Shown here: piece after piece, positions 1,731 to 28,037 of the stretch | Numbering within the stretch: position 1 is the stretch's first letter | Layout of the letters: each line of letters opens with the position of its first letter | Source: Helicobacter sp. NHP19-012 | Lineage (GTDB): Bacteria > Campylobacterota > Campylobacteria > Campylobacterales > Helicobacteraceae | Direction: 5' to 3' | Length of the DNA: 64,000 nucleotides | Assembly: GCF_019703325.1 (NCBI RefSeq) | Contig: NZ_AP024819.1 | Span: 1,240,001-1,304,000, forward strand | Notes under the pieces: model-generated | What the model saw: only the letters and a program-made list of their open reading frames with translations | Told to the model about the DNA's origin: nothing | The model's database searches: none | Program-made: the position numbers and the translations under genes

Positions 1731-3373
1731 GGTCTATCCTTTAAAATCGTGTTTAAAAAGCCCTGCATGTTAAAGTGGATTTTGTGGGAGTGGTGTCTAA
1801 AAATGCTTTGGTAGATGATGTAGTTTGCCAAAACCTTTTGCCCATAAAGGCGGGTTTCTTCACAGGGGATACGCTCCATGCTCAGCCACGGCTCAAACTT
1901 GCCTCTAGTAAAAAAGTGGTGTTCTTTGAGCAACTTTCTAAAAAATTTTGGTCCCCCATTGTAGCAGTAAGCCACGAACAGGGGGTTTTTAAACTCTTCC
2001 TTGAGGGTGTTTAAGTAGTAATTGCCAAAGGCTAAAGACAAATGGGGATTAAACATGTCGGTTAATTGCACCCTGCTTAAGCCAAGCGCCTTAGCAAAGG
2101 GGGCGACATTAAAGGGCATGATTTGCATAAGCCCTAAAGCATAAGAAGACGACACCAAAGCGGGGAGCAATAGGCTCTCCTGTCTAGCGATTGCATATGC
2201 CATCGCCTTTTCTTCTAGGCTTTTAAAGTGGGCTTTTCTGGCATAAGGGGTTAAAAAGTAATGCCGTTCATCGTTGTAATAGCGCTCCAAAAAATACGCT
2301 AAATGCGCCATGCTTTGCTCGGTTTTTAGGGACTTTAGGGCTTTTAAAAAGGCACGCTTGTTGTTGATGGATAGGATTTTCTCTTTAAGGATTTGCCACG
2401 CAAAGGGGTCTTTGATGTCAAATTTTGGGGGTTTGTGGCTCAACAAACCTAGCGAGGTTACAATGTGATACTTAGGCATGGTGTTGCGGGCAAGATTGGC
2501 ATAAAGGCTGAAAAGATTGGGGTTTGTGCTTTGGCTTAAAATGTCTAAATAGGCGTTATTTTGGCTTAAAAGATACTTCCAAAACACCGCCTTGTCGTGC
2601 ATGAAGGCTTTATCCGCCTGCTTTTGGGCACGGTCAAAGTAAGTAAAAGCGGTGATTTCTTCTTGGTGCAAAAGAGCATTGATGCCTAAAAGAAAAAAGG
2701 TTTTGGAATCGGAGTTGGTGATGCTTGCGTGGCTTAGGGCTTTTTGAAACACGCCAAAGTGGCTGTCTAAGATGACCCGCCTTAAGATGTCATTGAAGGC
2801 AGGGTTGTTCTCACTGGCGAGCTTGGCTAAGACTTCGGGGTCAAAGGGGCGATCTAAGAGGCCTTGCTTTTGCTCATAGCTTAGGGCGTTGTAAATGGTG
2901 GCGATCACGCTTGCCCTAGCTTGTATAAACGCATTTTGGTCTGTGGGATTTAGCACAATTTGCAAGGCGTTGTAAAGTTTGGGGTAACTTTTGAGCTTGG
3001 GTTGCAAAGAGCGCAAAATTGCCGCACTCTTGGGATCCTTAGCCTCTGTGAAAATGCGCTCAAAGCTTAGGGCAATGGCAATACATGCGCTGTCTTTATC
3101 ACTCAAAACTTCTAGGGGCAAACCTTGACAAGGGTGGGGGATTAAGTTTAACGCCCCCTTTTGCCTAGCCAATTCTATGAGTTTTGGGGTCTTGTGGGCG
3201 ATGAGATTATAGGCAGCTTTGGCTTGCTTAGCCGTAGTGCCAGGCTCTTGCAAATAAAGCCAAATGAAAAAATCTCTAGGCGTGCCCTTGGGTTTGCTCT
3301 TTAGGTAGGCTAGGCTGATGTGCTGGGCGTTTAAAGACACACAGCAAAGGACAAGCAAGAGTAGCCGCAACAA
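1727..3373 (-). CDS. slt: soluble lytic murein transglycosylase
   Basis: Cleaves the MurNAc-GlcNAc bond of peptidoglycan in the periplasm, forming 1,6-anhydro ends. The 548-residue protein has a signal peptide (LRLLLLVLCCVSLNA), a long alpha-superhelical U-shaped region, and a C-terminal goose-type lysozyme-like domain. In that domain AIARQES (near residue 398) carries the catalytic Glu, followed by SSSYALGLMQIMP and later the YNGG motif. In H. pylori Slt is linked to release of muropeptides that activate host Nod1. Located between yggT and galU, as HP0645. Confidence 0.94.
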   Translation of the reverse strand: MLRLLLLVLCCVSLNAQHISLAYLKSKPKGTPRDFFIWLYLQEPGTTAKQAKAAYNLIAHKTPKLIELARQKGALNLIPHPCQGLPLEVLSDKDSACIAIALSFERIFTEAKDPKSAAILRSLQPKLKSYPKLYNALQIVLNPTDQNAFIQARASVIATIYNALSYEQKQGLLDRPFDPEVLAKLASENNPAFNDILRRVILDSHFGVFQKALSHASITNSDSKTFFLLGINALLHQEEITAFTYFDRAQKQADKAFMHDKAVFWKYLLSQNNAYLDILSQSTNPNLFSLYANLARNTMPKYHIVTSLGLLSHKPPKFDIKDPFAWQILKEKILSINNKRAFLKALKSLKTEQSMAHLAYFLERYYNDERHYFLTPYARKAHFKSLEEKAMAYAIARQESLLLPALVSSSYALGLMQIMPFNVAPFAKALGLSRVQLTDMFNPHLSLAFGNYYLNTLKEEFKNPLFVAYCYNGGPKFFRKLLKEHHFFTRGKFEPWLSMERIPCEETRLYGQKVLANYIIYQSIFRHHSHKIHFNMQGFLNTILKDRP

Positions 3374-3375
3374 AG

Positions 3376-3669
3376 TTAACCTTGTGCGTAATTAAACATG
3401 AGCTGCACGGCGCTCAAATCAAAGAATTTCAACACCAAAATCACCGCTAGGGGGGATAAATCAATGCCATTAAACACCAGAAAGGGGGCAAGTTGCTTGG
3501 CTTTGTTGAGAGTAGGTTCTGTGAGGCGACAGAGGATCTGCACGATGGCGTTGCTTGGGTCGGGGCGCACAAAGCTTAAAAGGGAGGCGATGATGACCAC
3601 CCAAATGTAAATGTTGATTAAGCTGTGCAGGATAGTGGCGGTGACACTTAAGAGGGTGCTAACAACCAT
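3376..3669 (-). CDS. YggT family small membrane protein
   Basis: 97 residues with two hydrophobic segments separated by the conserved motif [27 protein letters not shown], which defines the YggT family (FVRPDP, LTEP). YggT proteins are inner-membrane proteins implicated in osmotic tolerance and, in some bacteria, in division or cell-envelope assembly; no biochemical activity is established. It overlaps the gltX2 end by 11 bases and is followed two bases later by slt, so it is co-transcribed. Corresponds by position to HP0644. Confidence 0.85.
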
Positions 3670-4996: not shown

Positions 4997-5014
4997 AAAA
5001 AGCCTTTTTGCCAA

Positions 5015-5020
5015 ATTATA
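5015..5020 (-). promoter_or_regulatory. extended -10 promoter of gltX2 cluster
   Basis: Read on the minus strand the sequence is TGCTATAAT, an extended -10 hexamer at 5020-5015 about 20 bases before the gltX2 ATG, giving a short leader. No clear -35 is visible, as is usual for Helicobacter sigma-80 promoters. Confidence 0.6.
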
Positions 5021-5110
5021 GCACAACGGACTAGATTATCAAGCACCCACAAAGCCAAATTTGTAAGCAAGTCTTAACCCAAAAGTCTACAAAAAACTAA
5101 AACAACCTGC

Positions 5111-5143
5111 AATAAAGTTTATAACGATACTATAAACTTTATT
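5111..5143. promoter_or_regulatory. perfect 13-bp inverted repeat, candidate operator
   Basis: AATAAAGTTTATA and its exact reverse complement TATAAACTTTATT are separated by seven bases (ACGATAC). The palindrome lies in the divergent intergenic region between gltX2 and the DUF2470-like gene, about 40-50 bases upstream of two TATAAT hexamers. It is followed by no T-run acting on an upstream gene, so a terminator role is unlikely. A dimeric regulator binding site is the simplest reading. It does not fit the H. pylori NikR consensus I know. The regulator is unknown. Confidence 0.5.
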
Positions 5144-5182
5144 GATACTAATTATATATACTAACTAGACTATCAACTTATC

Positions 5183-5200
5183 TATAATTTAATCTATAAT
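5183..5200 (+). promoter_or_regulatory. two overlapping -10 candidates for the DUF2470-like gene
   Basis: Two TATAAT hexamers at 5183-5188 and 5195-5200 lie 66-83 bases upstream of the ATG at 5266, within a very A/T-rich stretch. Confidence 0.45.
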
Positions 5201-5265
5201 TAAATAATTAAGTTTTAGAGAATTACAATCAAGTGTTTTTGAAAAATCTAGTAAAGGAGCTTAAG

Positions 5266-6048
5266 ATGGATAAGCAACACGCCTTAGATGTATTGAACAG
5301 CAAACAACTGCACAATGTGGTGAAGTTATTTGAGAAGTATGCACAAGTGCCAGGAGCTGCAAACATTTATGTCAAAGACCTTGATTTTGAGGGGCTGCAA
5401 ATCGCCTACACCAAAGAGGGGCAAGAGGAAATCTTTAGCCTTGCCTTCCCCTACACGCTTGAAAACTTTGAGGGCATCCGCGATGCGCTCATCGCCCTTT
5501 TAGGCGAAGACGCAGGGGTAGATGCCCAAAATATGCACCAAAATCCCCAATGGGGCTTTGGTCCTATGGGTTTTGGTCCGCAAACACAGGGTTTTAATCC
5601 GCACAATCCACAAAGAGGCTTTAATCCGCAAGGTTTTGGTCCCCAAAGTGGCTTTAATCCCCAAGCGCAACACCCCTTTAGTGGCTACGCCCCTTTTGGT
5701 GCACAAGGCGCAACCCCCCAACAAGGCTTTAACCCTCAAGCACAAGGTTTTCAAGGTTTTGGAGCGCAGGGCATGCCCTTTGCCCCCCATGGCATGTTCA
5801 TGTTCGGCTTTATGCCCTTTTGGGGATTTGGGCCCATGGGCTTTCACGCCCAAGCCCCACAATGGGGCTTTAACCCCCAAGGACAGAGCCCACAAAATGG
5901 CTTTGATCCACAAAGCCCACAGCAAGGTTTTAACCCCCAAAACCCACAGGGGGGCTTTGGTCCGCAAGCGCAAGGTTTTAGCCCCCAGCACCCGCAAAAT
6001 CGCTTAACAGAGTCAGCGCAAGCACAGCAAGCACAGCCACAAGATTAG
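5266..6048 (+). CDS. DUF2470-like domain protein with long GFNPQ-repeat disordered tail
   Basis: 260 residues, start at ATG 5266 behind a strong AAAGGAG. Residues 1-85 look like a compact DUF2470-type domain (DKQHALDVL near the start, DLDFEGLQIAY in the middle, then a helix containing IRDALIALLG). This is the fold found at the C-terminus of haem oxygenases of the HugZ type; the assignment is by pattern only. The rest is low complexity: about sixteen GF units in contexts such as GFNPQ and GFGPQ, rich in Gln, Gly, Pro, Phe and Asn with almost no charge, plus a hydrophobic Met/Phe island (FMFGFMPFWGF). It has no signal peptide. Its 3' end overlaps the convergent YeeE gene by 71 bases. Function unknown. 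Confidence 0.8.
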   Translation: MDKQHALDVLNSKQLHNVVKLFEKYAQVPGAANIYVKDLDFEGLQIAYTKEGQEEIFSLAFPYTLENFEGIRDALIALLGEDAGVDAQNMHQNPQWGFGPMGFGPQTQGFNPHNPQRGFNPQGFGPQSGFNPQAQHPFSGYAPFGAQGATPQQGFNPQAQGFQGFGAQGMPFAPHGMFMFGFMPFWGFGPMGFHAQAPQWGFNPQGQSPQNGFDPQSPQQGFNPQNPQGGFGPQAQGFSPQHPQNRLTESAQAQQAQPQD

Positions 6049-7138
6049 TTTTTAGTGGGGCTTCGTCCCACGCCCCACACAACCCCCACAGCCCCGCAAG
6101 TAGGAGGACTTGTAGCAACAAGCCCCCCCTAAACTCCAATAAATTGACCTTGGCAAAGCTGACCCAAAGGGGGGCGTAAAAATCCCAGCTAAGAGCCACT
6201 AAAGCCGCCCCCAAAACATTACCCACACCAACCATGACAGCCCCCAAATCCCCCTGCATAGAGCGATACATCCAGCCACACTCACACCCCCTAGCTAACA
6301 CAATCCCCACGCCAAAAAGTAGCCCCCCCACGGCAATGCCCGGGCTCGCCCACAAGGTTTTGGCGCTTAAGCCCAAATGCAAGCACACAAAAATCCCCAC
6401 ACTCCCCACCGCCATCGCCCACACCAAAGCCTTTGCCTGTGCGCTCTGCTTTTGCACGAATAAGTGTCTAAAAGCGGCGGTGAAACAAATTTGCCCCTTA
6501 GAAATGACAAAGCCAAAGAACGCCCCGAAACATAGGGCGTAAAAGAGTTTGTGGTGCAAGTGCCACGCCAATACCCCAAAGCCCCCCACAGCACAAAATG
6601 CTAAAAGGGCATTTAACCTAGCGGGGGCTTGTTTGGTTGCGCCTTTAGAGCAACTTGTGCTAAAGTGCCTAAAGGCAAGCCCCATGCCAACTAAAGTCGC
6701 CGCTGTAAAAAACCACGCATGTAGGCTAAATTGGGGGATACCCGTTAAAAAGCTTGCCAAATTACACCCAAGCCCCAAGCGCGCCCCAAGCCCCGCCAAG
6801 AGCCCACCTAAAAGTGAGCGCCCCATTTGCGCTTTTGTGGGTAAATTGAAGCCCACACGCCCAGATAAGCTAGACGCACAGAGCATGCCACAAAACATGC
6901 CAAGAATCATCACCCCATCTATGCGCTCAAAGATATTGCCCTTTAAACCTATGATTTTAAAATATCCTAGCTTGTTTGTGTCCACGCCAAACAAGTTTAA
7001 AAGGCTTGCTCCCCACCTTGTAAATTCCCCCGTAACCGCCCAGTAAGTGCCGACCACGCCAAAGTAAAAGACAGAAGCCACAGACAGAGCCAAAACACAG
7101 GGCGCAAACGCCCATTTCTGTGTAAAAAAACCCCGCAC
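5978..7138 (-). CDS. YeeE/YedE family sulfur-compound transporter
   Basis: Polytopic inner-membrane protein of about 386 residues with roughly nine to ten hydrophobic segments. The repeated Cys-containing motifs typical of the thiosulfate/sulfur-compound uptake family are present: LGLGCNLASFL, GQICFTAAFRH and LARGCECGW. Start is GTG 7138 with AGGA seven bases upstream. A T7 run directly before it (7139-7145) could, with one more base, fuse an upstream frame starting at ATG 7215 (MKFLTPLASLAS) as a longer N-terminus, so the start is uncertain. The end overlaps the convergent DUF2470-like gene. Substrate is inferred from family only. Confidence 0.85.
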   Translation of the reverse strand: MRGFFTQKWAFAPCVLALSVASVFYFGVVGTYWAVTGEFTRWGASLLNLFGVDTNKLGYFKIIGLKGNIFERIDGVMILGMFCGMLCASSLSGRVGFNLPTKAQMGRSLLGGLLAGLGARLGLGCNLASFLTGIPQFSLHAWFFTAATLVGMGLAFRHFSTSCSKGATKQAPARLNALLAFCAVGGFGVLAWHLHHKLFYALCFGAFFGFVISKGQICFTAAFRHLFVQKQSAQAKALVWAMAVGSVGIFVCLHLGLSAKTLWASPGIAVGGLLFGVGIVLARGCECGWMYRSMQGDLGAVMVGVGNVLGAALVALSWDFYAPLWVSFAKVNLLEFRGGLLLQVLLLAGLWGLCGAWDEAPLKTNLVAVLAVLALTLLSDFAGAGG

Positions 7139-7299
7139 AAAAAAATCCTAAATTGAAAATACGCTGAAAGTGTAAGCGTGCTAGCCAAACTGGCTAAGGG
7201 TGTAAGAAACTTCATTTTATGCGTAAGGGGTTTAAAGGGGGTTTAAACTCTCGTGCATATACCAAAATCTTTTGGTGCAATGCGCCATGTCTTCAAATT

Positions 7300-8949
7300 T
7301 TAGCCTTTTGCTTGCGTGGGCTTAGGGCCGATTTGCGCCTCTATGGCTACGCCCTTGTTCAGCCAGTTTTCTAGGGTTTCTTTGCGCGCTTGGCGGTCTT
7401 GAATCTCTTGTTCTAACTTAGTAAGATCGGTGTCTTGTGAGGCTTGGCAAGCTTGAAGGACTTGGGCATGGTGTTTTTTAATGAGGGCTAGCACTTCTTT
7501 TTGCAGTACCTCTAATTTTTTCTTAAGGTCTTTTTTAAATTTCTCCAACTCTTTTTTTGCCTTCTCTTGCATCACTAAATCAGCCACCTCTAGAAAAGCA
7601 GTTATAATGGCTAAAATGCCGCTCCCCCACTTAATGACACTCCCCGCTTTTCCCAAAATCCCCATCAAAGTTTTAGAAAGGCTTGTCAATAACCCCGCAA
7701 ACGCCGCGCTCCCAAAGAGATTTTTAAGTGTGCTTAAAAATTCCTCAAAATCGGATTTTTGATACTGAAAATGATAAGCCCCGCCCATCCCCTCTTCTTT
7801 CCATTTGTTGCCAATTTCTGCAAACTCCAAGCGCAACTCATCCTCCTCTAGCTTAAATCTTTCCTCTAAGACGTGCCTAAGCACCTCACCCTCCTCGCCT
7901 ATCCAGCGTTCTATAAAGTCTTTGATGTTGTGAAGGTCTGTTTGGCTAAGGGCCTCTAGCAAACGCTCAAAATGTTGCTTGCAAAATGCCTCTAAAGATG
8001 TCTCGGCGTTGTCTATGGTTTCTTTGAGATGCTCAAACTCTAAAGACATGCCTCGGCGCTTCTCATCTAAAGTCTCCATCTCTTGGCGCACCGCCTCTAG
8101 TGCTGCTCTGCCTTTTTTAAGTGGGGGGTGCAAGAGCGCAATCATGGTGCTCTTTACAGATTCTAAAGCCAAGTGCTGCGCCCCATTGGCCTTAATTTTT
8201 GCCTCTGTGGCTTGCTGTAAAAGACCTATACGTGAGAGTTGCCCAAACTCTTCAGGGTGTTTGAGCCAATGATCGATGCCCTCATCATAGGGGTTAGCCG
8301 CCACAGCCACAATGTCTAGCTTTTGGGCTTGCTCGAGACTAATGATCCCTTGTAACTCCTTGCACACCGTCTCTTTTTTGATCTCTAATGTGCGTTTGTA
8401 GCCTTCTTCGTTTTTGAGATTCACCACCTCATCAAATTTAGAGAGCACAAACACGCTTCTAGGCAAGAGATCGAGCTCTTGAAACAGCCAGCGCAACTCT
8501 TCGTGCTGACTCTCTTTAATGGGGTTACTTGGGTTCATCACATACAGCACTAAATGCGCCTCGCTCACATACTTTTTAGTGATGTCCTTGTATTTTTGCA
8601 CGCCATTTGCCCCGTATTTTTCTTTAAAGCCAAAGAGTCCGGGAGTATCCACCAACACAATGCCCCCCTTGACTGGATAAGTTTTCACCTCATCCGTAGA
8701 TTCCTCATGGGCGATTTTCATTTTTTTAGCTTGCTCTAAATCCCCAAGCCACGCCGCTGCAATGGAGGTTTTGCCACAAGAAAACTCCCCCACCAGCACT
8801 ACCTGTAATATACCCTGCTCTTTGGCATGGGTGATCTTTTCCTCAAAGCCCCTCTCTTCAACCATCCCCAGCCCCTCCCCCTCGCGCATAAATTCCGCCA
8901 GCGCATCTAAGAGAGCCCCCATTTGTCCGCTCTTGTCTAATCCTTGCAC
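7300..8949 (-). CDS. dynamin-like GTPase, second of tandem pair
   Basis: 549 residues. G1 P-loop GEFSCGKTS near residue 55, G3 DTPG near residue 101 and G4-like SKFD near 171 define a dynamin-type GTPase domain. Long coiled-coil helices follow, with a hydrophobic Ala/Gly-rich segment near residues 405-460 (AAFAGLLTSL ... GILAIITAFLEV) resembling a membrane-insertion paddle, then more coiled coil. Tandem dynamin-like proteins of this kind are known in Campylobacter jejuni (Cj0411/Cj0412), where the pair assembles and tethers membranes. Its start overlaps the end of the upstream partner by 13 bases, so the two are translationally coupled. Acts at the inner membrane, by inference. Confidence 0.88.
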   Translation of the reverse strand: MQGLDKSGQMGALLDALAEFMREGEGLGMVEERGFEEKITHAKEQGILQVVLVGEFSCGKTSIAAAWLGDLEQAKKMKIAHEESTDEVKTYPVKGGIVLVDTPGLFGFKEKYGANGVQKYKDITKKYVSEAHLVLYVMNPSNPIKESQHEELRWLFQELDLLPRSVFVLSKFDEVVNLKNEEGYKRTLEIKKETVCKELQGIISLEQAQKLDIVAVAANPYDEGIDHWLKHPEEFGQLSRIGLLQQATEAKIKANGAQHLALESVKSTMIALLHPPLKKGRAALEAVRQEMETLDEKRRGMSLEFEHLKETIDNAETSLEAFCKQHFERLLEALSQTDLHNIKDFIERWIGEEGEVLRHVLEERFKLEEDELRLEFAEIGNKWKEEGMGGAYHFQYQKSDFEEFLSTLKNLFGSAAFAGLLTSLSKTLMGILGKAGSVIKWGSGILAIITAFLEVADLVMQEKAKKELEKFKKDLKKKLEVLQKEVLALIKKHHAQVLQACQASQDTDLTKLEQEIQDRQARKETLENWLNKGVAIEAQIGPKPTQAKG

Positions 8950-10890
8950 CCTTCACTCCCTTCTTTAAATGGTTGGCTACACGCTTTTAAGCGCGCCACA
9001 CTTGTATTTAAATCCGCACACAATCCTTCTCCTTGCTCCAACATCTCCTCTAAACGCTTGCCAATGGCCTGTTGGCACTTCTCTAGTGCTTGGCGCACCC
9101 CCTCAAGAAGCACCCCCTTCTCTAGCACGCTTAACAATCCTTGAGCCAGTTTTAGTTTGCCCTCCAGTTCTTGTTTGTCCAAGATATTCCAAAAATACAG
9201 ATCCTCGAGCTTAGCCTTAATCTTTTGGATTTCCTCCTGCACCTCTTTAAGACCCATAAGACCCACGGCACACTTTAGGCATTTAAGGGCATGATCTAAG
9301 GTCTTATTAAAAGCCTTGCGTTGCTCGCTTCTCTTATAATCATCATCAAGGGCTTTTCTAACCCCCTTATACAGCAAAAGCCCCCCAGCCGCCACAGTCA
9401 CCACAAGACCAGCTATCCCCAGAGGATTCCATATATTTGCCAAGTCAAACAAAAACAAGCCCGCAAAGGTCGCCCCTGCGCCTCCAAGATTGAACCAATC
9501 AAATCCGCTGTCCGTCTCAAAAGTGTGGTCGCTAAAGTTATGGCCATGCTTGTCAAAATCCGCGCCATGGCGCTTGAGCACGCCCGCCTTGAGCCGGATT
9601 TCACGCACCAAAGCCTCTATGTCCGCTTTGAATTGATGATCGCACGCCTCTAGCGTGTCTTTCACCTTTGCAGCAAACACTTGGGCTTGCTCTTTTAAAA
9701 CCTCCTTAGTCTTTGCCTCAAAGCCCTCATCGCTTAAAAGTGAAGTGCGGATGTGTCTATACATGGCATCTTCGCTGGCATTTTTAAAGCGCACAATGAG
9801 ATTATCCAACTCTTTTTTTAAAGATACAAGCGTTTTTTGGCACAACAGATCAAGCTTGGGGATTTTTAAATCCACGCTTTCTTTAAACGCCTTGTGGCAC
9901 TCTTGCATGGTGTGCAGGGCTTGGTGGGCACTCTTGGTGCAACGCTGCAGGGCACAAAAGGCCTTGTAACATTGATCTTGAAAGACGATCTCTTGCTGTT
10001 GCTTGGCGATTTTTTGGAGCAAATGACATAAGTCGTCAAAGTGGCTCCACTCTAAAAGTCTGGCTGTGCTTGTGTGCACTAAAAAATCCTTTTGATCAAA
10101 GAGAAAGCCTTTGGGGTCTTTGGGGTCTAAACACTTTGCCAATGCCAAAAACGCCACATAGGCACACACGCTCCTATGCCCTTGGTAGTGTGGCCCTAAG
10201 ACCTCGCGCATTTTAGCGTCTGCGTCCTCTAGGGCGTGTTTTTCACTGCCAACTAGGGGTTTTTGTAACAACTTAGGGTTTGTTACGCCCTTGTTGTGGA
10301 AAAAATAGACCCGGCTTTGGTCGTTTAAGTAGCTTTTGATCTTGTGAAGTGTGCCCTCTTGGGGGGGCGTGGGGTTTTTAGAAATGTAAAAAATGACATG
10401 GGCTTTGGCGCAAGCCTCTTTAATAAATTTTTCAACCTGCGCCTCATCGCCCTCGATTCCGGGCATGTCTAATAGGGTAACCTCCCCCCCCATTAGCAAG
10501 GGTGAAGGTGTAAGGGGTGATCGCTTGGGTAAAATCTATGTGGGCATCAATGATCGCCCCATCGGCTAAAGGCGTTGTGTCCCCCCGCGCTTCTTGAAAC
10601 AAACGCTGTTCTAATGCCTTGCCTGGCTCGTTGAAAAAAAGGCGCAACGCCTCAATGAGCGTGGATTTGCCCGCATTGGTTTCACCAAAAAGGGCGATCG
10701 TAATCTTCGGCTTTTGCTCTGTTTCTAAGTCTTCTAGCCGTCTTAAACTTTGGGACTTCAGCCCTTCAAAATCTGCTCGCGCGCTTTCCAACCACGCCCC
10801 AAAGATTGGGTGTTTCTTTGATTGGCTAAAAATCTCGGTGATTTTAGCTAATTCCTTTCTCGCACTAGCAGTGCTTGGGTGTGAATGCAT
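8937..10890 (-). CDS. dynamin-like GTPase, first of tandem pair, frame split at a G8 tract
   Basis: Two overlapping frames make one protein of about 650 residues. The upstream part (start 10890) has the P-loop GETNAGKST; the downstream part begins with LLDMPGIEG, the G3 motif. They are joined at an eight-C run on the plus strand (10484-10491, G8 in coding sense): with seven G the protein reads FTLANGGEVTLLDMPG without a break. The tract lies inside the GTPase domain, so G8 gives a truncated, inactive product. Helical stalk and a hydrophobic paddle (AGATFAGLFLFDLANIW ... GLVVTVAAGG) follow. Either a phase-variable switch caught OFF or a consensus error; the length of the tract favours real slippage. 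Confidence 0.87.
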
Positions 10891-10893
10891 CGA

Positions 10894-11016
10894 TCAATCC
10901 TCGATCACTTCTATCACTTCTTTGATCAGAAGATACGCCCCATACCCCAATAACCCAAAGAGCAAACAACAGTCAAAAACTTTCTGTTGTTGGCCGTTTA
11001 AAAACCAAAGTGGCAT
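10894..11016 (-). CDS. 40-residue single-span membrane peptide leading the dynamin-like operon
   Basis: Starts at ATG 11016 with AAGGGGG seven bases upstream and ends three bases before the ATG of the first dynamin-like GTPase. The peptide is MPLWFLNGQQQKVFD, then one hydrophobic span (CCLLFGLLGYGAYLLI), then an acidic tail (KEVIEVIED). Good ribosome site and near-abutting downstream gene support translation and coupling. No homology can be claimed; a membrane partner or recruiter of the GTPases is an inference from position. Confidence 0.6.
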   Translation of the reverse strand: MPLWFLNGQQQKVFDCCLLFGLLGYGAYLLIKEVIEVIED

Positions 11017-11068
11017 GCAAACCCCCTTAAAAATTTCCGCCCATTGTATCTAATTTTGTCTAACTTTT

Positions 11069-11801
11069 TTATAAATCACAGGATTTAGCCCAAGAATAAC
11101 GCAACTCATTTAAGGGGATCAACTGCCCCTTTTGGTGAACGTAAAAATAGTCCCAACCATTGTGGTTGAGTTTATTTAAAATTTTTGCGCTCATTTTGTG
11201 GATGGATAAAACCACTCCGCTGCCATCTTGCACTTGTCCGCTTACCAAGACTTGGCAAGCCCTAGCTTTGCTAGGCGTGTTAAAACTTGCCCCACTTGCA
11301 AATACCCCGATTAACTAGGGTTTTCATCGGCACTTTGGGGGTCTTTTTTCATACTCTAGAGCACTAAAAGCGTCCATAGTAACGGGCGTATTTGCTATCC
11401 TAGCTAGGGCGGCTTGTGCGTAGTCTGAGTCTTTTTCAATGTCTAAGAAGTTGCGCCCCAAACGTTTCGCCACCGCCCCCGTGGTGCCCGTGCCAAAGAA
11501 GGGATCAAGCACCAAATCCCTCGGCTTAGTTGCCGTTAACAGCTGACACAAAGACTGCCTTTAAGCGCACACTGACACTCCCTAAGCCACGCTTGGCTAA
11601 AGCTGTCGTAATGGGGCGAAGTCTTTAAATTTGTCCCATTCTGCGCTCACTGCGCTAAACTTAGTCTCACCCACTCTTAAGAATTCCCCCTGAAGTTGAC
11701 AGAAAATAAGGCGGATCGGTAAAGATAAATCCACACTTGCGCTAGGCAAGGTCTTTAAAAGCTCAAGGCAATCGCCTTGTAAAACGGTGTTGGCGTGCGA
11801 A
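11069..11801 (-). pseudogene. decayed DNA adenine/cytosine-N4 methyltransferase
   Basis: Remnants of a DPPY-type methyltransferase appear in order on the minus strand: near 11785-11700 NTVLQGDCLELLKTLPSAS followed after a frame shift by an IFTDPPYF-equivalent; near 11640-11570 the EWDKFKDFA and YDSFSQAWLRECQ motifs in shifting frames; then a jump, with about 60 expected codons missing, to [20 protein letters not shown] (motif I, 11545-11480). A C-terminal SIHKMSAKILNKLNHNGWDYFYV-type segment ends at 11069. No start codon, several frameshifts and an internal deletion mean no active enzyme. No partner endonuclease is seen nearby. Confidence 0.82.
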
Positions 11802-11802
11802 C

Positions 11803-13014
11803 CTAGCGTTCGATCACTTCAGTTTTTAAGCCCTGTTTTTCTAGTTCTGCTAAGAAAGGATCGGGGTCGAGCTGCTCTAAATTAAACACCCCCTTAGAGT
11901 TTTCACCCCCCCAAATGCCCTTACAGATCATCATCGCCCCCACCACAGCGGGCACGCCCGTGGTGTAGCTGATGGCTTGTGCGCCGACTTCTTCATAACA
12001 TTTTTGGTGGTCACAGACATTATAAATATAAAGCCGTTTTTCTTTCTTGTTTTTTGTGCCGTGGATGTAGCACCCGATGTTGGTTTTGCCCGTGGTTTGA
12101 CCTGCAAGATTAGCTGGATCGGGCAAGAGCTGTTTTAAAATTTGGATGGGCACGACTTTACCCACTTTGCCATCGACTAAGGGCACTTCTATGGGTTCAA
12201 TGCCCAACATCCCCACATTGCCCAAACAACGCATATGGTTAAGGTAGTTGTCCGAGAAGGTCATAAAAAAGCGGATGCGTTTTAGTCCCTTAATGTGTTT
12301 AACTAGGGACTCCAATTCCTCGTGGTAGAGCAAGTAAGAAGCCCTTTCGCCAATCTCAGGGTACGCCCAAGTTTGTTTGATCTCTAGGGGGGCGGTTTCG
12401 ATCCACGCCCCGTTTTCGTAGTAACGGCCCCTTGCGCTCACCTCCCTTAAATTGATCTCGGGATTGAAGTTGGTGGCAAAGGGGTAGGGGTGCGTGCCGG
12501 CGTTGCAGTCTAAAATGTCGATGTTGTAGATTTCATCAAAATGATGCTTTTGGGCGTGGGCGCAAAAGACATTGGTTACGCCCGGATCAAAGCCGCTGCC
12601 TAAAAGCGCAAAAATCTGCGCATCTTTATAGGCCTTGTCAAACGCCCACTGCTCTTTATACTCAAACTTGGCAAGGTCGGGGTGTTCATAGTTGGCGGTG
12701 TCTAGGTAGTTTGTTTTTGTTTGTAGACATGCTTGCATGATGGTGAGATCTTGGTAAGGTAGGGCGATGTTTAAGACCACTTTAGGTTTGTATTTCTCAA
12801 TCAACGCCACGACTTCCTGCACGCTGTCAGCATCCACTTGCTCGCAGATGATTTCGCCTAGCCCCTTGGCTTTCACACTATTAGCGATGGCTTGGCATTT
12901 AGACAAGGTGCGGCTAGCCAGCACCACCCTTTCAAATAAGTGGCGGTTTTGGACGAGCTTGTGTGCCACCACGCGCCCCACGCCCCCCGCTCCAATTTGT
13001 AAGACCGTGAGCAT
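11803..13014 (-). CDS. saccharopine-dehydrogenase-like carboxynorspermidine/carboxyspermidine dehydrogenase
   Basis: 403 residues, beginning with the NAD(P)-binding GAGGVGRVVAHKL motif. The fold and length match the CASDH branch of the saccharopine dehydrogenase family, which condenses L-aspartate semialdehyde with a diamine to carboxy(nor)spermidine; the C. jejuni enzyme Cj0172c is the characterised example in this lineage. Conserved stretches GSGFDPGVTNVF and SYTTGVPAVVGAMM are visible. Older annotations would call this lysine or saccharopine dehydrogenase, but Helicobacter makes lysine by the diaminopimelate route. It reads away from gltS with a shared upstream region. Confidence 0.85.
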   Translation of the reverse strand: MLTVLQIGAGGVGRVVAHKLVQNRHLFERVVLASRTLSKCQAIANSVKAKGLGEIICEQVDADSVQEVVALIEKYKPKVVLNIALPYQDLTIMQACLQTKTNYLDTANYEHPDLAKFEYKEQWAFDKAYKDAQIFALLGSGFDPGVTNVFCAHAQKHHFDEIYNIDILDCNAGTHPYPFATNFNPEINLREVSARGRYYENGAWIETAPLEIKQTWAYPEIGERASYLLYHEELESLVKHIKGLKRIRFFMTFSDNYLNHMRCLGNVGMLGIEPIEVPLVDGKVGKVVPIQILKQLLPDPANLAGQTTGKTNIGCYIHGTKNKKEKRLYIYNVCDHQKCYEEVGAQAISYTTGVPAVVGAMMICKGIWGGENSKGVFNLEQLDPDPFLAELEKQGLKTEVIER

Positions 13015-13047
13015 TCTATCCCTTTGTCAAAGATTGGGTTACGAATG

Positions 13048-13056
13048 TGCTATTAT
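13048..13056 (+). promoter_or_regulatory. extended -10 promoter of gltS
   Basis: TGCTATTAT is an extended -10 element, with the hexamer TATTAT at 13051-13056, about 46 bases before the gltS ATG at 13102. Confidence 0.5.
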
Positions 13057-13101
13057 ACAAGTTATATTTTACCCTTTGGTTAAACAAGATTAGGAAGTGC
13101 G

Positions 13102-14346
13102 ATGGCAAAGGTGATCGAGTTTAATGTTTATGCGACTTTGGTTTGTATGGTGGGGGTCTTGCTTTTAGGGCGCTTTGTGATCCGCCATGTGAAGTTTCTT
13201 AAAGACTACGACATCCCCGATCCTGTGGTGGGGGGGGTGATCGTTGCCTTTGTGATCATGCTCGCCCATCACTTCTACAACTTTAAACTCGTGCTCGATT
13301 CCAGCCTCAAAGAGCCTTTAATGCTGACCTTTTTCATCACCATAGGCTTGAGTGCGGACTTTGCCTCCCTAAAAAAGGGGGGTAAAATGCTCGTGGTGTT
13401 CTTGATCGCCGTGGGTATCTTTGTGATCGTGCAGGACTTGGTGGGCGTGGGTGTGGCAAGCATGATTGGCGTGAATCCTTTAATGGGCTTACTTGGCGGC
13501 TCAATTTCGCTCACCGGCGGGCATGGCACTAGTGCGGCGTGGTCCTCCACCTTCTCGCAGGCCCCCTACAACTTCCCCCAAAGCTTGGAAGTCTCCATCG
13601 TGTGCGCCACCTTTGGGCTAGTGAGTGGGGGGATCATCGGTGGGCCCGTGGCGTGCTACTTGATCAAACGCTACAAACTCGAGCCTAACAAACAAACAAC
13701 AGAACAACAAGAACACGAGCCCATGCTCGTCTTTGAAGCCCCTAAACAAGAGCGCCTCATCACGGCTAATAGCTTCATTGAGAGTTTGGCGTTGGTGAGC
13801 ATCGCGCTTCTTGTGGGGACTTTCATCGCCAAACACGCCACTTCCGTGCATTTGGGTAGTTTCACCCTACCCACCCTACCCACCTTTGTGTGGTGCTTGT
13901 TTGTGGGCGTGCTTTTAAGAAACATCTCCACTTACAGCAACATCCATAAAGTCTTTGATCGCGAAATCGGTGTGATCGGCAATGTGAGCCTGAGCCTCTT
14001 TCTCGCCTTTGCTTTAATGAGCATCAATCTCATGGAGCTTGTGAATTTAGCTTTACCCATTGCCATTATCCTCACCGTGCAGGTGGCGGTGATGATCCTT
14101 TATAGCGTGTTTGTCACCTTTCGCATGTGTGGCAAAAGCTATGATGCGGCGGTGCTAAGCGCGGGGCATTGTGGCTTTGGGCTAGGCGCAACCCCCACGG
14201 CGATGGTGAACATGCAAACCATCACCAACCACTACGGGCCAAGCCATGTCGCCTTCATTGTCGTGCCCTTGGTGGGGGCGTTTTTCGTAGACATCATCAA
14301 CGCGTTGACCATTAAAGGCTTTCTAGCCCTGCCCTTCCACTACTAA
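13102..14346 (+). CDS. gltS: sodium/glutamate symporter
   Basis: 414-residue polytopic inner-membrane carrier of the ESS family importing glutamate with sodium. Two inverted halves are visible, each with a Gly/Ser-rich re-entrant motif: GLLGGSISLTGGHGTSAAW in the first and SAGHCGFGLGATPTAMVNM in the second. A hydrophilic loop near residues 195-220 separates them. Next to ribD with no gap, as HP1506-HP1505. It heads an apparent four-gene run gltS-ribD-trmN-ccoI. Confidence 0.95.
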   Translation: MAKVIEFNVYATLVCMVGVLLLGRFVIRHVKFLKDYDIPDPVVGGVIVAFVIMLAHHFYNFKLVLDSSLKEPLMLTFFITIGLSADFASLKKGGKMLVVFLIAVGIFVIVQDLVGVGVASMIGVNPLMGLLGGSISLTGGHGTSAAWSSTFSQAPYNFPQSLEVSIVCATFGLVSGGIIGGPVACYLIKRYKLEPNKQTTEQQEHEPMLVFEAPKQERLITANSFIESLALVSIALLVGTFIAKHATSVHLGSFTLPTLPTFVWCLFVGVLLRNISTYSNIHKVFDREIGVIGNVSLSLFLAFALMSINLMELVNLALPIAIILTVQVAVMILYSVFVTFRMCGKSYDAAVLSAGHCGFGLGATPTAMVNMQTITNHYGPSHVAFIVVPLVGAFFVDIINALTIKGFLALPFHY

Positions 14347-15369: not shown

Positions 15370-16073
15370 GATTTTACCAGCCCCTCAAGGGCTACGCCTA
15401 CAACAGCACGAGCTTGTTTTTAGCCCACTTTGCCACGCCTTTTATTAAAAGGGGCGATAAGCTCTTAGACATCGGGGCGGGCTGCGGGGTGGTGGGGCTG
15501 CTTTGCGCTAGGGAGTTTAAAAACCCCCTAGATTTGGTGGAGATCGATTATGAAATGGCATTTTTTGCACGGCTCAATTGCCAAAACGCCCCCCACGCTA
15601 GAGTGCACCACAGCGACTTTTTAAATTGCCCCCTAGAGCCCAATTCTTACGCCGTGGTGCTCTCCAATCCCCCCTACTACCCCAAAAACAGCCTCAAAAG
15701 CCCGCATAGCCAAAAAGCCCAAGCCACCAACCAAAGCTACTTGCCCTTGTTAGACTTTTGCGCCAAAGCCGCACAGCTGTTAAAACCACAGGGCTACTTT
15801 GTGCTCTGCTACCACGCCAGCCTCGCCGATAGCCTGCTTGCTGCCTTGCAACAAGCCAAGTTAAAGCCCGCCCTGCTACGCTTCGTCCATCCCTTTAAAA
15901 ACCACAAGGCGAGTTTAATTTTATGTGCCGCGAGAAAAAACAGCAAGAGCTATTTAAGGATAGACCCGCCCTTAATCACGCACAACTCCAAAAACCAACA
16001 AGACAACACCCCCGAGGTGGCACACATCTATGAAAAATTTAAAACCCACAGCATCAAGGCCTCCCTTGCCTAA
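15366..16073 (+). CDS. tRNA1(Val) adenine-N6 methyltransferase-like (TrmN6/YfiC) protein
   Basis: 235 residues. SAM-binding motif I LLDIGAGCGVVGLL and the catalytic NPPY motif (SNPPYYPKNS) mark a Rossmann-fold adenine-N6 or related methyltransferase; order and spacing match the TrmN6 branch. ATG at 15366 overlaps the ribD stop as ATGA, which I prefer to the upstream GTG. HP1504 holds the same place in H. pylori. The exact RNA substrate in Helicobacter is not shown by the sequence. Confidence 0.82.
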   Translation: MRFYQPLKGYAYNSTSLFLAHFATPFIKRGDKLLDIGAGCGVVGLLCAREFKNPLDLVEIDYEMAFFARLNCQNAPHARVHHSDFLNCPLEPNSYAVVLSNPPYYPKNSLKSPHSQKAQATNQSYLPLLDFCAKAAQLLKPQGYFVLCYHASLADSLLAALQQAKLKPALLRFVHPFKNHKASLILCAARKNSKSYLRIDPPLITHNSKNQQDNTPEVAHIYEKFKTHSIKASLA

Positions 16074-18442
16074 TTGCACCCATTGTAAACTGCCCTGCCA
16101 AAACGAAGTTTTAACCTTAGAGCAGGAAAACACCCCCCCCCTTGTCTTTTGCTGTGCGGGCTGCAAGCAGGTTTATACGCTTTTGCACGACCTGCAACTA
16201 GAGAGCTTTTACGACAAATTAGGCGCAAAACCCCTAGCCCCCATCGCCCCCCAAAGCCCACGCCAAGGAGCATTACAGCTCCAAAGCCTTTTTAGACAAA
16301 TTCACCACGCCCCTAGAAAATGGGCTACTAGAAGTGGCGCTGCTGCTGGAGAACATCCATTGCGCCGCCTGTGTGTGGCTCATTGAGCATGTACTTTTGA
16401 AACAAAAAGGCATTTATGGCGTGCAGACCAATTACACCACGCAGCGGGCGTTTGTGCGCTTTGAGCCAACAGAAATCGACATCGCCGCCATTTTAGATGC
16501 GGTGGCGGCGATCGGCTATCAGGCGCAAGTGTATGACCCTAGGGTGCAAGACAACCACGCCAAAAAGCAACAAGAAAAAGCCTTCATCGCCCTTGTAGTG
16601 GGGGTGTTTGCCAGCATGAATATCATGTTCATTGCCATCGCCGACTATGCGGGCTACTTTTCGGGCATGGACATACATATGGCGTTTAAGCTGCACATCG
16701 CCTCGTGGGCGCTCGCCTCGCTTGCGCTTTTCATCACGGGGGCGGTGTTTTTAAAAGGGGCGTTTTATGGCTTAAAACACGGCGTGGTGGGCATGGATCT
16801 CAGTGTGAGCGTGGGCGCACTGGGCGTGTATCTTTACTCCATTTACGCCACCTTTAGCGGGGCGCGCCCTTATTTTGAGTCGGTGAGCATGCTCATCACC
16901 TTGGTGTATCTTTCTAAATTTTTAGAGCTTAAAGCCAAGCACCGCGCCAACGCTCTATTAGACAGCCTGCAAAGTGCCCTACCCTTGCAGGTGGCGGTGG
17001 TTGAGCTTGAGGAGGGGCAAATTAAAAGGGTGCTCAAAGACCCGCAGGACATAGAGGTGGGTGCACTGGTGGAGGTCTTGCCCGGGGAGTGTGTGGCGCT
17101 TGATGGCGTGCTAGAGAGTGAAAACGCAGAAGTGAGCACCCAAGCCTTTAATGGGGAGAGTTTGCCGACCACTTTAGAAAAAGGGCAAAGCGTGCTCTCG
17201 GGTTGTGTCAATTTGTCGGGGGCTTTCACCTACAGGGTGGGCGCGCCCTTTAAAGCCTCGTTTTTAAGTCAAATGGTGGAGCTCGTGCAAAAAAGCTTTT
17301 TAGAAAAGCCCAAATTGCAAGAGAGGGCGGACAAACTCGCCCGCTATTTTAGCACGGCGGTGCTCGCACTCGCAGGGCTGGGCTTTGTCTTTTGGGCGTT
17401 TATGGCAAGCATAGCGCAGGGCTTTTTTGTGGCGATGAGCGTAGTCGTGGTCGCCTGCCCCTGCGCCTTTGCTTTGGCTGCGCCCATTGCCTTGGTGCTA
17501 GGCAGCAACGCCGCTTTTAAAAAGGGGGTTTTGTTTAAGAAAAACAGCAGTTTAGAAAGCCTAGCCAAGGCAAGCACTTTATTTTTAGACAAGACGGGCA
17601 CGCTCACTAAGAGTTTATTGCAAGTGCAAAGCCGCAGCACACACGCCCCCTATGATTTGGGGCAACTTTTGGGCTTGCTGTGGCACAACCCTCATCCCAT
17701 TGCCAAGAGTTTATGTGCTTTCTTTAAAGAGCAGGCACAGCCCGCCCTCGTAGAAAACCTCAAACAAGAAAACGGCGGGCTTGAAGCGCGTTGCGGGGGG
17801 CATATCTTGCATGGCGGGTCGGTGGCGTATTTAGAAAGTAAGGGCGTGGCGGTGGGGGATTTAAAGGCGGACTTTGTCTACAGCGTGGATCGCAAATTAA
17901 AGGCGAGTTTTAGCTTGCAGGCAAGTTTAAAGCCCCAAGCCCTAGAAGTGGTGCAAGGCTTAAAGTCTATAAGGTTAAAGATCGCTATTTTAAGCGGGGA
18001 TGGCTCGCCTAGCGTGTTTAAGATTGCTAAAGAGTTAGATTTGCCCTGTTTTGCCCCTTTAAGCCCGCAAGAAAAATTAGCGCATGTGCAAAGTGCCCTA
18101 GCACAAAAGGAGGTCGTGGTGATGGTGGGCGATGGCTTGAACGACACGGCGAGCCTCGCTACAAGCCAAGTGTCTATGTGCATGCACGAGGGGCATGACT
18201 TGAGCCTGCTTTATAGCGACATTATCTTGCTCAACAACAGTCTAGAGGGGGTGCAAATCGCCTTCAATGTAGCCAAAAGCACCCACCAGCGCATCAAACA
18301 AAACCTCGCCATCAGCGCGCTTTACAACGCCCTTTTTATCCCCCTAGCCCTGTGCGGCGCGATCACACCCCTAATTGCTGCTGTTGGCATGGGGCTTAGC
18401 TCGCTCTTGGTGGTGGCTAACAGCTTTAGATTGCGCTTGTAA
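16030..18442 (+). CDS. ccoI: copper-transporting P1B-ATPase for cbb3 oxidase assembly, frame broken
   Basis: About 803 residues when a single base is removed from the C6 run at 16247-16252; without that, the N-terminal part runs off frame and the rest starts late. The N-terminus has the CTHCKLPC and CCAGCK metal-binding domain of FixI/CcoI, then a heavy-metal domain with NIHCAACVW. Later come the CPC membrane metal site (VACPCAFALAAP), DKTGTLT with the phosphorylated Asp, and MVGDGLNDTASL. CcoI supplies copper to the cbb3 oxidase and is distinct from CopA. Position matches HP1503. Respiration in Helicobacter depends on cbb3, so a consensus error is more likely than a true null. It overlaps trmN by 44 bases. 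Confidence 0.9.
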
Positions 18443-19187: not shown

Positions 19188-20300
19188 TCAAAACCCCCCC
19201 AAAATCTCCAATAAAGTTTGGGCGGTGTGCTTAGCAAGAGCTAAACTCATTTTTTGGTGGCAGGGTAAAGAGATTTCAGCTTTATAGAAACTCTCGGCTT
19301 TAGGTAGGGACTGCTTGCCTAGTAGATTTTCATAGAGTTTAAAGGTGTGTATGGGCTTGTAGTGCACCTGCACGCCCATTTGGGCTTGTAAAAGTGCGTC
19401 TAAGATTTGGGTTTTTCGCCCCCACAAAAAGGGCTTTAGCAAAATGGGGTATAAATGGTTGGCACTTTTAACTTTGGGGCTTAATTTGGCGTGCAAACAA
19501 GTAAAATAGGGGTTGTCTTTAAACAAGTTGTCATACAAGCAAGCAATTTCTTCTCTTTTAGCGATGAAGGTATCCACTTTTTTAAGCTGGCTTAGCCCCA
19601 AAGCAGCTTGTAATTCATTCATGCGGAAGTTAAAACCCAAAGTCTGCACCTGTGTGTCCCAGCCGTCTTTTTCCACTCCGTGGGAGATGAGCAGTTTGAG
19701 CCGCTGATAAAGAGCGTGGTCGTTCGTGGCAACTGCCCCGCCCTCGGCGGTGGTGATGGATTTAATGGCGTGGAAGCTAAACACGCTCGCATCGGCAAGC
19801 GCACCGATTTTCACGCCCGCATACGCCCCCCCAAAGGCGTGTGAGCTATCACTGATAAAAAGCAAGCCATGCCTAGCGCAAAAGGCTTTAATGGCAGGAA
19901 TATCCACGCTCGCCCCCCCGTAATCCACGCTCACCACAGCCTTCACTCCCTCTTGCAAACAATTTTCTAAAAGTGCGGGGTCAATGTTGCCATCTTGTCC
20001 GATGTCGCAAAAAATGGGTGTGGCTTTGGTCGCTAAGAGCATGTTCGTGGTCGCCACAAAACTTAGGGGCGTGGTGATGGCTTTAGAGTGGGCTAAGTCT
20101 AATGCCTGATAGAGCATGAAAAGCGCACTCGTGGCGTTCGTGCAAACCACGACATGCTTTACGCCCAAGTAATCCGCCAACGCCCTTTCAAACTTCTCCA
20201 CTAAAGGGCCCTGCGCCAAATGCGCCCCTTGCAAGGCTTGTTGCACCGCTTTTAAGTCGTCTGTGTCGATACATTGTGTGCTGTAGGGGTTGATTGCCAA
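19188..20300 (-). CDS. pseC: UDP-4-amino-4,6-dideoxy-N-acetyl-beta-L-altrosamine transaminase
   Basis: 370-residue PLP-dependent aminotransferase of the DegT/DnrJ/EryC1 family. The N-terminal INPYSTQCIDTDDLKAV, the DSSHAFGGAY stretch and the PLP-lysine motif SFHAIKSITTAEGGA match PseC (HP0366). It transaminates the 4-keto sugar made by PseB in the pathway to pseudaminic acid, which glycosylates flagellin and is needed for motility. A general sugar aminotransferase is the alternative, but the fit to PseC is close. Confidence 0.9.
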   Translation of the reverse strand: MAINPYSTQCIDTDDLKAVQQALQGAHLAQGPLVEKFERALADYLGVKHVVVCTNATSALFMLYQALDLAHSKAITTPLSFVATTNMLLATKATPIFCDIGQDGNIDPALLENCLQEGVKAVVSVDYGGASVDIPAIKAFCARHGLLFISDSSHAFGGAYAGVKIGALADASVFSFHAIKSITTAEGGAVATNDHALYQRLKLLISHGVEKDGWDTQVQTLGFNFRMNELQAALGLSQLKKVDTFIAKREEIACLYDNLFKDNPYFTCLHAKLSPKVKSANHLYPILLKPFLWGRKTQILDALLQAQMGVQVHYKPIHTFKLYENLLGKQSLPKAESFYKAEISLPCHQKMSLALAKHTAQTLLEILGGF

Positions 20301-26886: not shown

Positions 26887-26892
26887 TATAAT
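26887..26892 (+). promoter_or_regulatory. -10 hexamer of the aminotransferase-murC-mutS2 operon
   Basis: Perfect TATAAT in the 36-base gap after the micro-lipoprotein, 24 bases before ATG 26916. Confidence 0.55.
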
Positions 26893-26915
26893 GGGCGTTT
26901 TTAGTGGAGAATTGT

Positions 26916-28037
26916 ATGTTTGAGCCCTACCCCTTTGAGCGCCTACGAGAGCTATTGAAAGACTGCAAGAGGGGGGCAAATGCCCCCTTAGATTTGTCCA
27001 TCGGTGAACCGCAGTTTGAAACCCCCCTTAGTGTGCAAGAAACCTTAAAAGCCCACACGCAAGAATTACGCTTTTACCCTAAAAGCAGTGGGGAGGATTT
27101 TTTAAAAGAGGCACAAATGGCGTTTGTGAAAAAACGCTTTGGTGTGGAGCTGTCTAAAGAGCAAATCATCCCCACCTTTGGCTCTAAAGAAGTGCTCTTT
27201 AGCCTGCCTATTTTCTACCTACACGACAAAGAAGCTCCCATTATGGCTTTTGCCAATCCCTTTTATCAAGTGTATTTAGCTAGTGCACGGGTGGCGCGCG
27301 CTCAGGTGGTCTTGATGGATTTAAGCCCAGAAAATAACTTCACGCCCACTTTAGAGCAAGAGGCGGATTTAGTCATCTTAAACTCGCCCAACAACCCCAC
27401 AGGGCGGACTTTAGACTTAGAAGAGTTGAAAGAGTGGGTGCTAAAAGCCCTTGACGAGGATTTTCTCTTAGTCAATGACGAGTGTTACAGCAACATTTAC
27501 GCCCAAACGCCCCCCCCTTCGATCTTGCAAGCGTGCATGGAAGTGGGCAACACAGATTTTAAAAATGTCCTTGCCATCAACTCCCTCTCTAAGACTTTAA
27601 GCGCACCGGGGCTTAGAAGTGCCTACATTGCCGGGGACGCTACTATTTTAAAGCCCTACCAAGTCTTTAGAAGTTACAGCGGTTGTGCCTTGCCCCTACC
27701 ATTGCAACACGCCAGTGCCGTAGGCTGGCTAGACTTAAAATCCCAAGAGCACATCCGCCATATTTACGCCAAAAACCTAAACCTCGCCCAAGAGATTTTG
27801 GGCGTGCCAATTTATCCCACAAGCTTTTATGTGTGGCTGGAGGTGCGCGAGGGGCAAGAATTTACCAAGCACCTTTACACCACTGAGGGGATAAAAGTCC
27901 TACCCGGGGACTTTCTAGGCTATGGCAATAGCCCACACACAAAGGACTTTGTGCGGGTGGCTTTGGTGTATGCCCCTGAGAGCCTAGCCCCCGCCCTAAA
28001 CGCCCTTAAAAACGCCCTAGATAGCTATTTATGCTAG
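26916..28037 (+). CDS. class I/II aminotransferase, probable succinyldiaminopimelate transaminase
   Basis: 373-residue PLP enzyme. The N-terminal PFERLRELL and [20 protein letters not shown] near residue 162, NDECYSNIY near 190 and [15 protein letters not shown] with the PLP lysine near 224 define fold type I. Gene order with murC, a small membrane protein and mutS2 matches HP0624-HP0621; such enzymes are generally assigned as DapC in this lineage, but specificity is inferred. Start 26916 has GGAG well spaced; the upstream GTG at 26904 would overlap the ribosome site. It overlaps murC by seven bases. Confidence 0.85.

Follow-up and report, generated by a model that had tools for sequence, protein, structure and literature searches.

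A length-variable poly-G tract in leoBC of Helicobacter sp. NHP19-012 marks a probable phase-variable operon for an Eleos-type dynamin pair

Introduction

The anti-phage system Eleos, which we take to be composed of the proteins LeoA and LeoBC, reportedly goes back to Millman et al. in 2022. Here we describe a related pair of adjacent genes, leoBC and leoA, in a 64,000-nucleotide stretch of the genome of Helicobacter sp. NHP19-012 (NCBI RefSeq assembly GCF_019703325.1, contig NZ_AP024819.1, positions 1,240,001 to 1,304,000 of the forward strand), referred to below as the window and used for all coordinates unless another source is named. In the assembled strain the reading frame of leoBC changes at an uninterrupted run of eight G, and comparison with related genomes indicates that the locus is probably a phase-variable (contingency) operon encoding two bacterial dynamins of the LeoBC-LeoA (Eleos) kind.

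Eleos is referred to as a defence system in the consulted part of PMC10482375. The window pair agrees with it in that both protein families are matched strongly (PADLOC-DB) and the genes are adjacent, on the same strand and overlapping, an operon-like layout; it differs in that leoBC is interrupted at a G run of variable length and in that the pair is not known to have defence activity. A second comparison is offered by the dynamins LeoA, LeoB and LeoC of enterotoxigenic Escherichia coli (ETEC), for which the sections considered of PMC4159319 report a role in vesicle release and name LeoA homologues in Helicobacter pylori at about 30% identity. The ETEC genes likewise form a paired operon, and the window LeoA matches the LeoA structure PDB 4aur; in ETEC, however, the partner is divided into two genes, leoC and leoB (same sections of PMC4159319), whereas the window partner is one gene broken at a repeat, with no fixed split. 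The DLP1/DLP2 proteins of Campylobacter jejuni (PMC6104087, in excerpt; PDB 5owv) are also paired bacterial dynamins, and 5owv_A stood at rank 5 in a Foldseek search; the Foldseek TM-scores were 0.19-0.20, and the intact LeoBC of Helicobacter sp. NHP21005 (P0004) had no PDB sequence match at an expectation value (E) of 0.01.

Two kinds of variable repeat described in Helicobacter bear on this locus. For H. bizzozeronii CIII-1, 43 candidate phase-variable genes are tabulated (PMC3234257, Table 4), and these poly-G/C contingency genes share clade and kind of tract with the window leoBC. The table includes HBZC1_18160, annotated as "putative ATP/GTP binding protein", whose tract is a G15 close to the 5' end and which is listed as cell-surface-associated; from this description the gene is probably leoBC. 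The words dynamin and GTPase do not occur in the main text of that paper. The same two words and the term GTP-binding were likewise not found in the consulted text of a paper on repeats in H. canadensis (PMC2823697). The second kind comprises the promoter T/A tracts of H. pylori, among which Table 2 of the sabA rheostat paper (PMC4081817) gives HP_0733 ("hyp") a run of 13T located between -35 and -10. This gene, too, is probably leoBC, since 13T fits the variable T run that H. pylori-like genomes have in the promoter region of leoBC; it is a promoter repeat, not a coding one, and none was seen upstream of the window leoBC. Phase variation of H. pylori restriction genes has been discussed in relation to phages (PMC12003011, in excerpt). 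Among the matches listed from the open-access literature, no title or abstract beginning named Eleos or a dynamin pair subject to phase variation in Helicobacter.

Results

The G8 run lies on the coding strand at 10484-10491 (minus strand; C8 on the plus strand), in the turn between strands β2 and β3 of the LeoBC GTPase domain and directly 5' of the G3 motif (DMPG). It is an uninterrupted homopolymer within the coding region whose length determines the frame. The 5' piece of leoBC (10444-10890, minus strand; 148 amino acids; PADLOC LeoBC E 5.2e-17) begins with ATG at 10890, carries the P-loop GETNAGKST, enters the run as LANGGGG and ends at a TGA at 10444-10446, about 12 codons beyond it. A different frame holds the 3' piece (8937-10499, minus strand; 520 amino acids; PADLOC LeoBC E 2.6e-64), which has GGEVTLLDMPG close to its start and is open through the helical part and what is left of the GTPase domain. 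A preliminary description of this DNA, made from its sequence, had placed G8 within the GTPase domain of the first of two dynamin-like genes, with a stop soon after the P-loop and the start of the partner overlapping the end of this gene; run, frames and P-loop were confirmed, as was the overlap, which measures 13 nucleotides. Each of the two pieces has a single copy in the genome of the strain. The change at the run is the sole disabling one found in the window leoBC, about 520 codons being open after it, and LeoBC is interrupted in the assembled strain: as assembled, the gene is closed. In a predicted model of the intact LeoBC of NHP21005, the sequence NGGGE, which begins at residue 133, falls between a strand of residues 125-130 and another of residues 137-142.

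The 3' leoBC piece was searched in 60 genomes and had matches in 21, the source genome included. We compared the site in four clade relatives, Helicobacter sp. NHP21005, H. cynogastricus, H. labacensis L9 and H. bizzozeronii CCUG 35545; five window proteins are 82-92% identical to those of NHP21005. An uninterrupted G run occupies the same site in three of the four, with re-measured lengths of 10, 13 and 13 against 8 in the window, which amounts to a length polymorphism at one site across four species. At G10 the leoBC of NHP21005 is open, with 660 codons (protein P0004, 660 amino acids; 89% identity to the window); the copies with G13 are closed, by a stop 13 codons after the run in H. cynogastricus and 7 codons after it in H. 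bizzozeronii CCUG 35545, and in H. labacensis the N-terminal part of leoBC is absent together with the run. Uninterrupted G runs persist at the site between proteins that are just 46-49% identical, and their presence at the same place by coincidence is very unlikely because only 10 runs of at least 10 occur in 560 kb of NHP21005. Judged from these comparisons, the leoBC site is very likely a conserved, length-variable contingency tract. Its conservation would also suit programmed slippage of RNA polymerase or ribosome at the run, giving some full-length LeoBC from every template, and slippage during transcription could be favoured by homopolymers of 8-13 G. Programmed slippage sites are usually fixed in length, however, whereas lengths between 8 and 13 occur at this one and one copy needs no shift to be open, and we regard programmed slippage as highly improbable.

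Hints of variation between strains come from protein sequences. P0001, encoded on a contig of 93,727 bases, is 99% identical to the 148-amino-acid window piece over 93% of its length, and its C terminus, NGGGGGGKLPY, follows a third frame that differs both from the frame of the window and from the open one; as shown from its protein sequence only, a near-identical strain reads a different frame at the tract. That P0001 is a second copy in the genome of NHP19-012 was considered and rejected because the 5' piece has a single match there. P0002, from H. felis, ends in ACTGGGGGGTSLS, shortly after six glycines, and two further proteins are downstream pieces, P0007 from H. bizzozeronii beginning 3 residues before the glycines and P0006, whose sequence resembles H. 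bizzozeronii, beginning 23 residues before them. The frame of P0001 and the same-site length variation in the relatives support the proposal of the preliminary description that a dynamin-like GTPase is a candidate for phase variation. Nor do related genomes share one in-frame length, the outcome which that description had set against slippage: their runs are 10 (open), 13 (closed) and 13 (closed).

The length of G8 is unremarkable by chance, and the tract is significant because it is conserved and length-variable in relatives. The window has nine G8 matches (7 runs), where 3.16 ± 2.44 would be expected; significance from length alone was rejected because 3 of 100 shuffles reach that count. Slippage at runs of eight does take place in this clade, since in another gene of H. 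bizzozeronii C8 had become C9 in 10 of 11 spontaneous mutants, with mutation rates of 4.78e-6 and 1.74e-5 (PMC3734016, sections consulted). Only the leoBC run, among the seven G/C runs of at least 8 in the window, coincides with a frame change; the remaining six sit in frames that are uninterrupted at the run. Compared with NHP21005, these six are of equal length at 13230, 16133 and 20336 and one shorter there at 27510 and 59475, and at 58222 there is no run at the aligned place. Three genes with such runs served as controls across the clade relatives. The gltS run is equal in length in NHP21005, while synonymous changes break it up in the three remaining relatives, and the tilS run is interrupted in all three relatives in which it was seen, the NHP21005 site having been missed by the search patterns. 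The run in an aminotransferase gene (26892-28037 in the window) is interrupted in two of the four relatives, H. cynogastricus and H. bizzozeronii, and is in phase in all, including the uninterrupted versions of C8 in the window, C7 in NHP21005 and C11 in H. labacensis (L177).

A different repeat was found in 16 other genomes of the genus whose leoBC resembles H. pylori proteins, which we label H. pylori-like. No G/C run of at least 8 occurs in these 16 loci, where the turn differs (P0010). A T run lies upstream of the leoBC start in all 15 loci in which it was measured (L006, L007 and L009-L021; one was left out), with lengths of 7, 8, 8, 8, 9, 9, 9, 12, 12, 13, 13, 14, 14, 15 and 15. It begins 45-56 nucleotides before the start, in a conserved, promoter-like context, and stands immediately before GTTAAAATG in 13 of the 15; L018 has GTTAGAATG at this place, and L020 has an altered sequence downstream of the run. 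Between pairs with 98% identical flanks its length differs by up to seven, and of the 12 A/T runs of at least 9 across 57,666 bases of H. pylori-like loci, 11 are the leoBC T run. With -35- and -10-like elements assigned around it by eye, the T run is apparently a second switch on leoBC, located between the two elements. No A/T run of at least 8 is present in the corresponding upstream region of the window (10881-11400).

Several observations weigh against a phase-variable operon, and they concern both the assembly and the state of the gene. The length of 8 comes from the assembly alone and could be miscounted; homopolymers are a frequent assembly error, and in that case the true run length would be an open one. 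The genome of NHP19-012 has fewer very long G runs, with 10 ten-mer matches against 118-257 in four relatives. General homopolymer collapse in this assembly is hinted at by the ten-mer counts, but runs of 7, 8 and 9 are similarly frequent (96, 41 and 9 in 464 kb, against 141, 43 and 7 in 560 kb of NHP21005; runs of at least 10 number 4 against 10), and it was kept as a rival; just 2 of the 10 long NHP21005 runs could be placed in the NHP19-012 genome, too few for a test. Three of the six other window runs of at least 8 are of equal length in NHP21005, and even a wrong count at leoBC would leave the tract variable, given the runs of 10, 13 and 13 at the same site and the frame of P0001. We consider a consensus error unlikely. 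P0001, P0002, P0006 and P0007 are protein sequences, and the tract lengths behind them are deduced; furthermore, the aminotransferase control run is itself longer (C11) in H. labacensis, albeit in phase.

As to the gene itself, a complete open leoBC is present in only one of the four clade relatives, in H. cynogastricus leoBC is broken a second time, close to its end (L063 4627-5001), and in 13 of the 16 H. pylori-like loci tblastn with P0011 matched leoBC as at least two pieces. For H. bizzozeronii CCUG 35545 the assembly is of poor draft quality (83% complete, in about 150 contigs), and leoA, gltS and the aminotransferase gene are fragmented in it as well; for this reason its G13 count and its breaks carry little weight. 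The second break in H. cynogastricus and the 13 fragmented loci indicate that gene decay is also under way. Together with the N-terminal loss in H. labacensis and the split leoA of H. bizzozeronii CCUG 35545, they could mean that leoBC is a decaying pseudogene and the run one of several inactivating changes. Against this, the window frame is open for about 520 codons past the run, where the sole disabling change lies, and leoA is intact; the NHP21005 copy, at 89% identity, is fully open; and uninterrupted G runs have been kept at the site among proteins 46-49% identical. We judge decay as the main explanation to be less likely still than an assembly error. In the remaining H. pylori-like loci, P0011 matched one stop-free piece in 2 of 16 (L007 and the partial L008) and one piece with a stop in 1 of 16. 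Among the loci with several pieces, L009 and L011 have their main leoBC pieces in one frame, so that these genes may be open.

The partner leoA (7300-8949, minus strand) encodes an intact dynamin-like GTPase of 549 amino acids, with a GTG start inside the end of leoBC. Its product matches Pfam DLP_helical (PF18709, E 3.2e-44), PADLOC LeoA (E 2e-104) and PDB 4aur (E 9.3e-46), and the open copy P0004 matches PADLOC LeoBC with E 4.9e-75. By profile and layout the gene pair is assigned to the LeoBC and LeoA families, and the window pair is, on the same grounds, a relative of Eleos by descent and layout and not an intact system as assembled. LeoA matches were obtained in 24 of 34 genomes of the genus; three were weak (E 4e-4 to 1e-3) and are probably other GTPases. 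In H. bizzozeronii CCUG 35545 leoA is split over two frames (L101 4974-6585). In H. labacensis the sequence preceding the truncated leoBC (L062, about 2900-3500) is in a different reading frame and, by eye, may derive from a neighbouring Sel1-like gene.

Just 5' of the leoBC ATG ends a small hydrophobic open reading frame of 40 codons (10894-11016, minus strand; MPLWFLNGQQQ...), which has a counterpart of 37 amino acids in NHP21005. Further upstream of the pair is what remains of a type II DNA methyltransferase gene (11083-11802, minus strand; largest open piece 11324-11551), whose outer bounds are approximate and taken from the comparison with NHP21005. It matches Pfam N6_N4_Mtase and PADLOC MTase_II, and it is also split in NHP21005 (150 and 283 amino acids), where a type II restriction enzyme fragment lies downstream of leoA (PDLC03491, E 5.7e-16). 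At least in NHP21005, therefore, the pair is flanked by parts of a decayed restriction-modification locus. Rfam gave no match at gathering score in window positions 5000-14000. Across 7000-11400, a scan for sigma-70-like promoters found none against 4.4 in shuffles, and terminator-like sites numbered 14 against 6.0; neither result was used. Elsewhere in the window, a C7 run at 19826-19832 within an intact DegT-type aminotransferase frame is C6 in NHP21005 and is another possible variable run, and a heavy-metal P-type ATPase is encoded in two frames (16030-16386 and 16334-18442, plus strand), with a 2-base difference from NHP21005 at 16251.

Discussion

In the phase-variable operon that we favour, slipped-strand mispairing would alter the number of G in the run, which encodes a turn of glycines linking two strands in the GTPase domain of LeoBC. 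One length class would keep the frame open; in the other two, translation would end ahead of the G3 motif, so that the GTPase domain would be incomplete. With the leoA start lying inside the end of leoBC, the closed state should reduce LeoA too, through lost translational coupling. A population would then be a mixture of cells with and without the pair, so that plausibly only some of the cells would bear what an anti-phage or membrane-stress system costs. A defence role for the window pair is inferred here by analogy with Eleos.

The G and T repeats seem already to have been catalogued separately, in the source tables as far as consulted, without being linked as one dynamin locus. The view in the preliminary description that dynamin pairs are not a usual target of phase variation consequently needs qualifying: a G15 "putative ATP/GTP binding protein" stands in the H. 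bizzozeronii table of 2011 and is probably this gene. What the present comparison adds is that the locus is identified and that a single gene is seen to carry two different repeats. It is possible, and we put it forward tentatively, that gastric helicobacters keep an Eleos-type dynamin pair under two independently evolved repeat switches on leoBC, a coding poly-G tract acting as a translational on/off switch in the clade of the window and a promoter poly-T tract setting transcriptional dose in the H. pylori group. If this is true, the system would be costly enough that bet-hedging of anti-phage immunity was selected twice.

Known targets of phase variation in Helicobacter are surface structures and restriction-modification genes, and an Eleos-type dynamin pair would add a membrane-acting defence candidate. 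Since a closed copy enters the records as separate fragments, each hypothetical, surveys may under-count the Eleos-type system in this genus. Natural on/off pairs would let one ask what such dynamins do and what they cost the cell.
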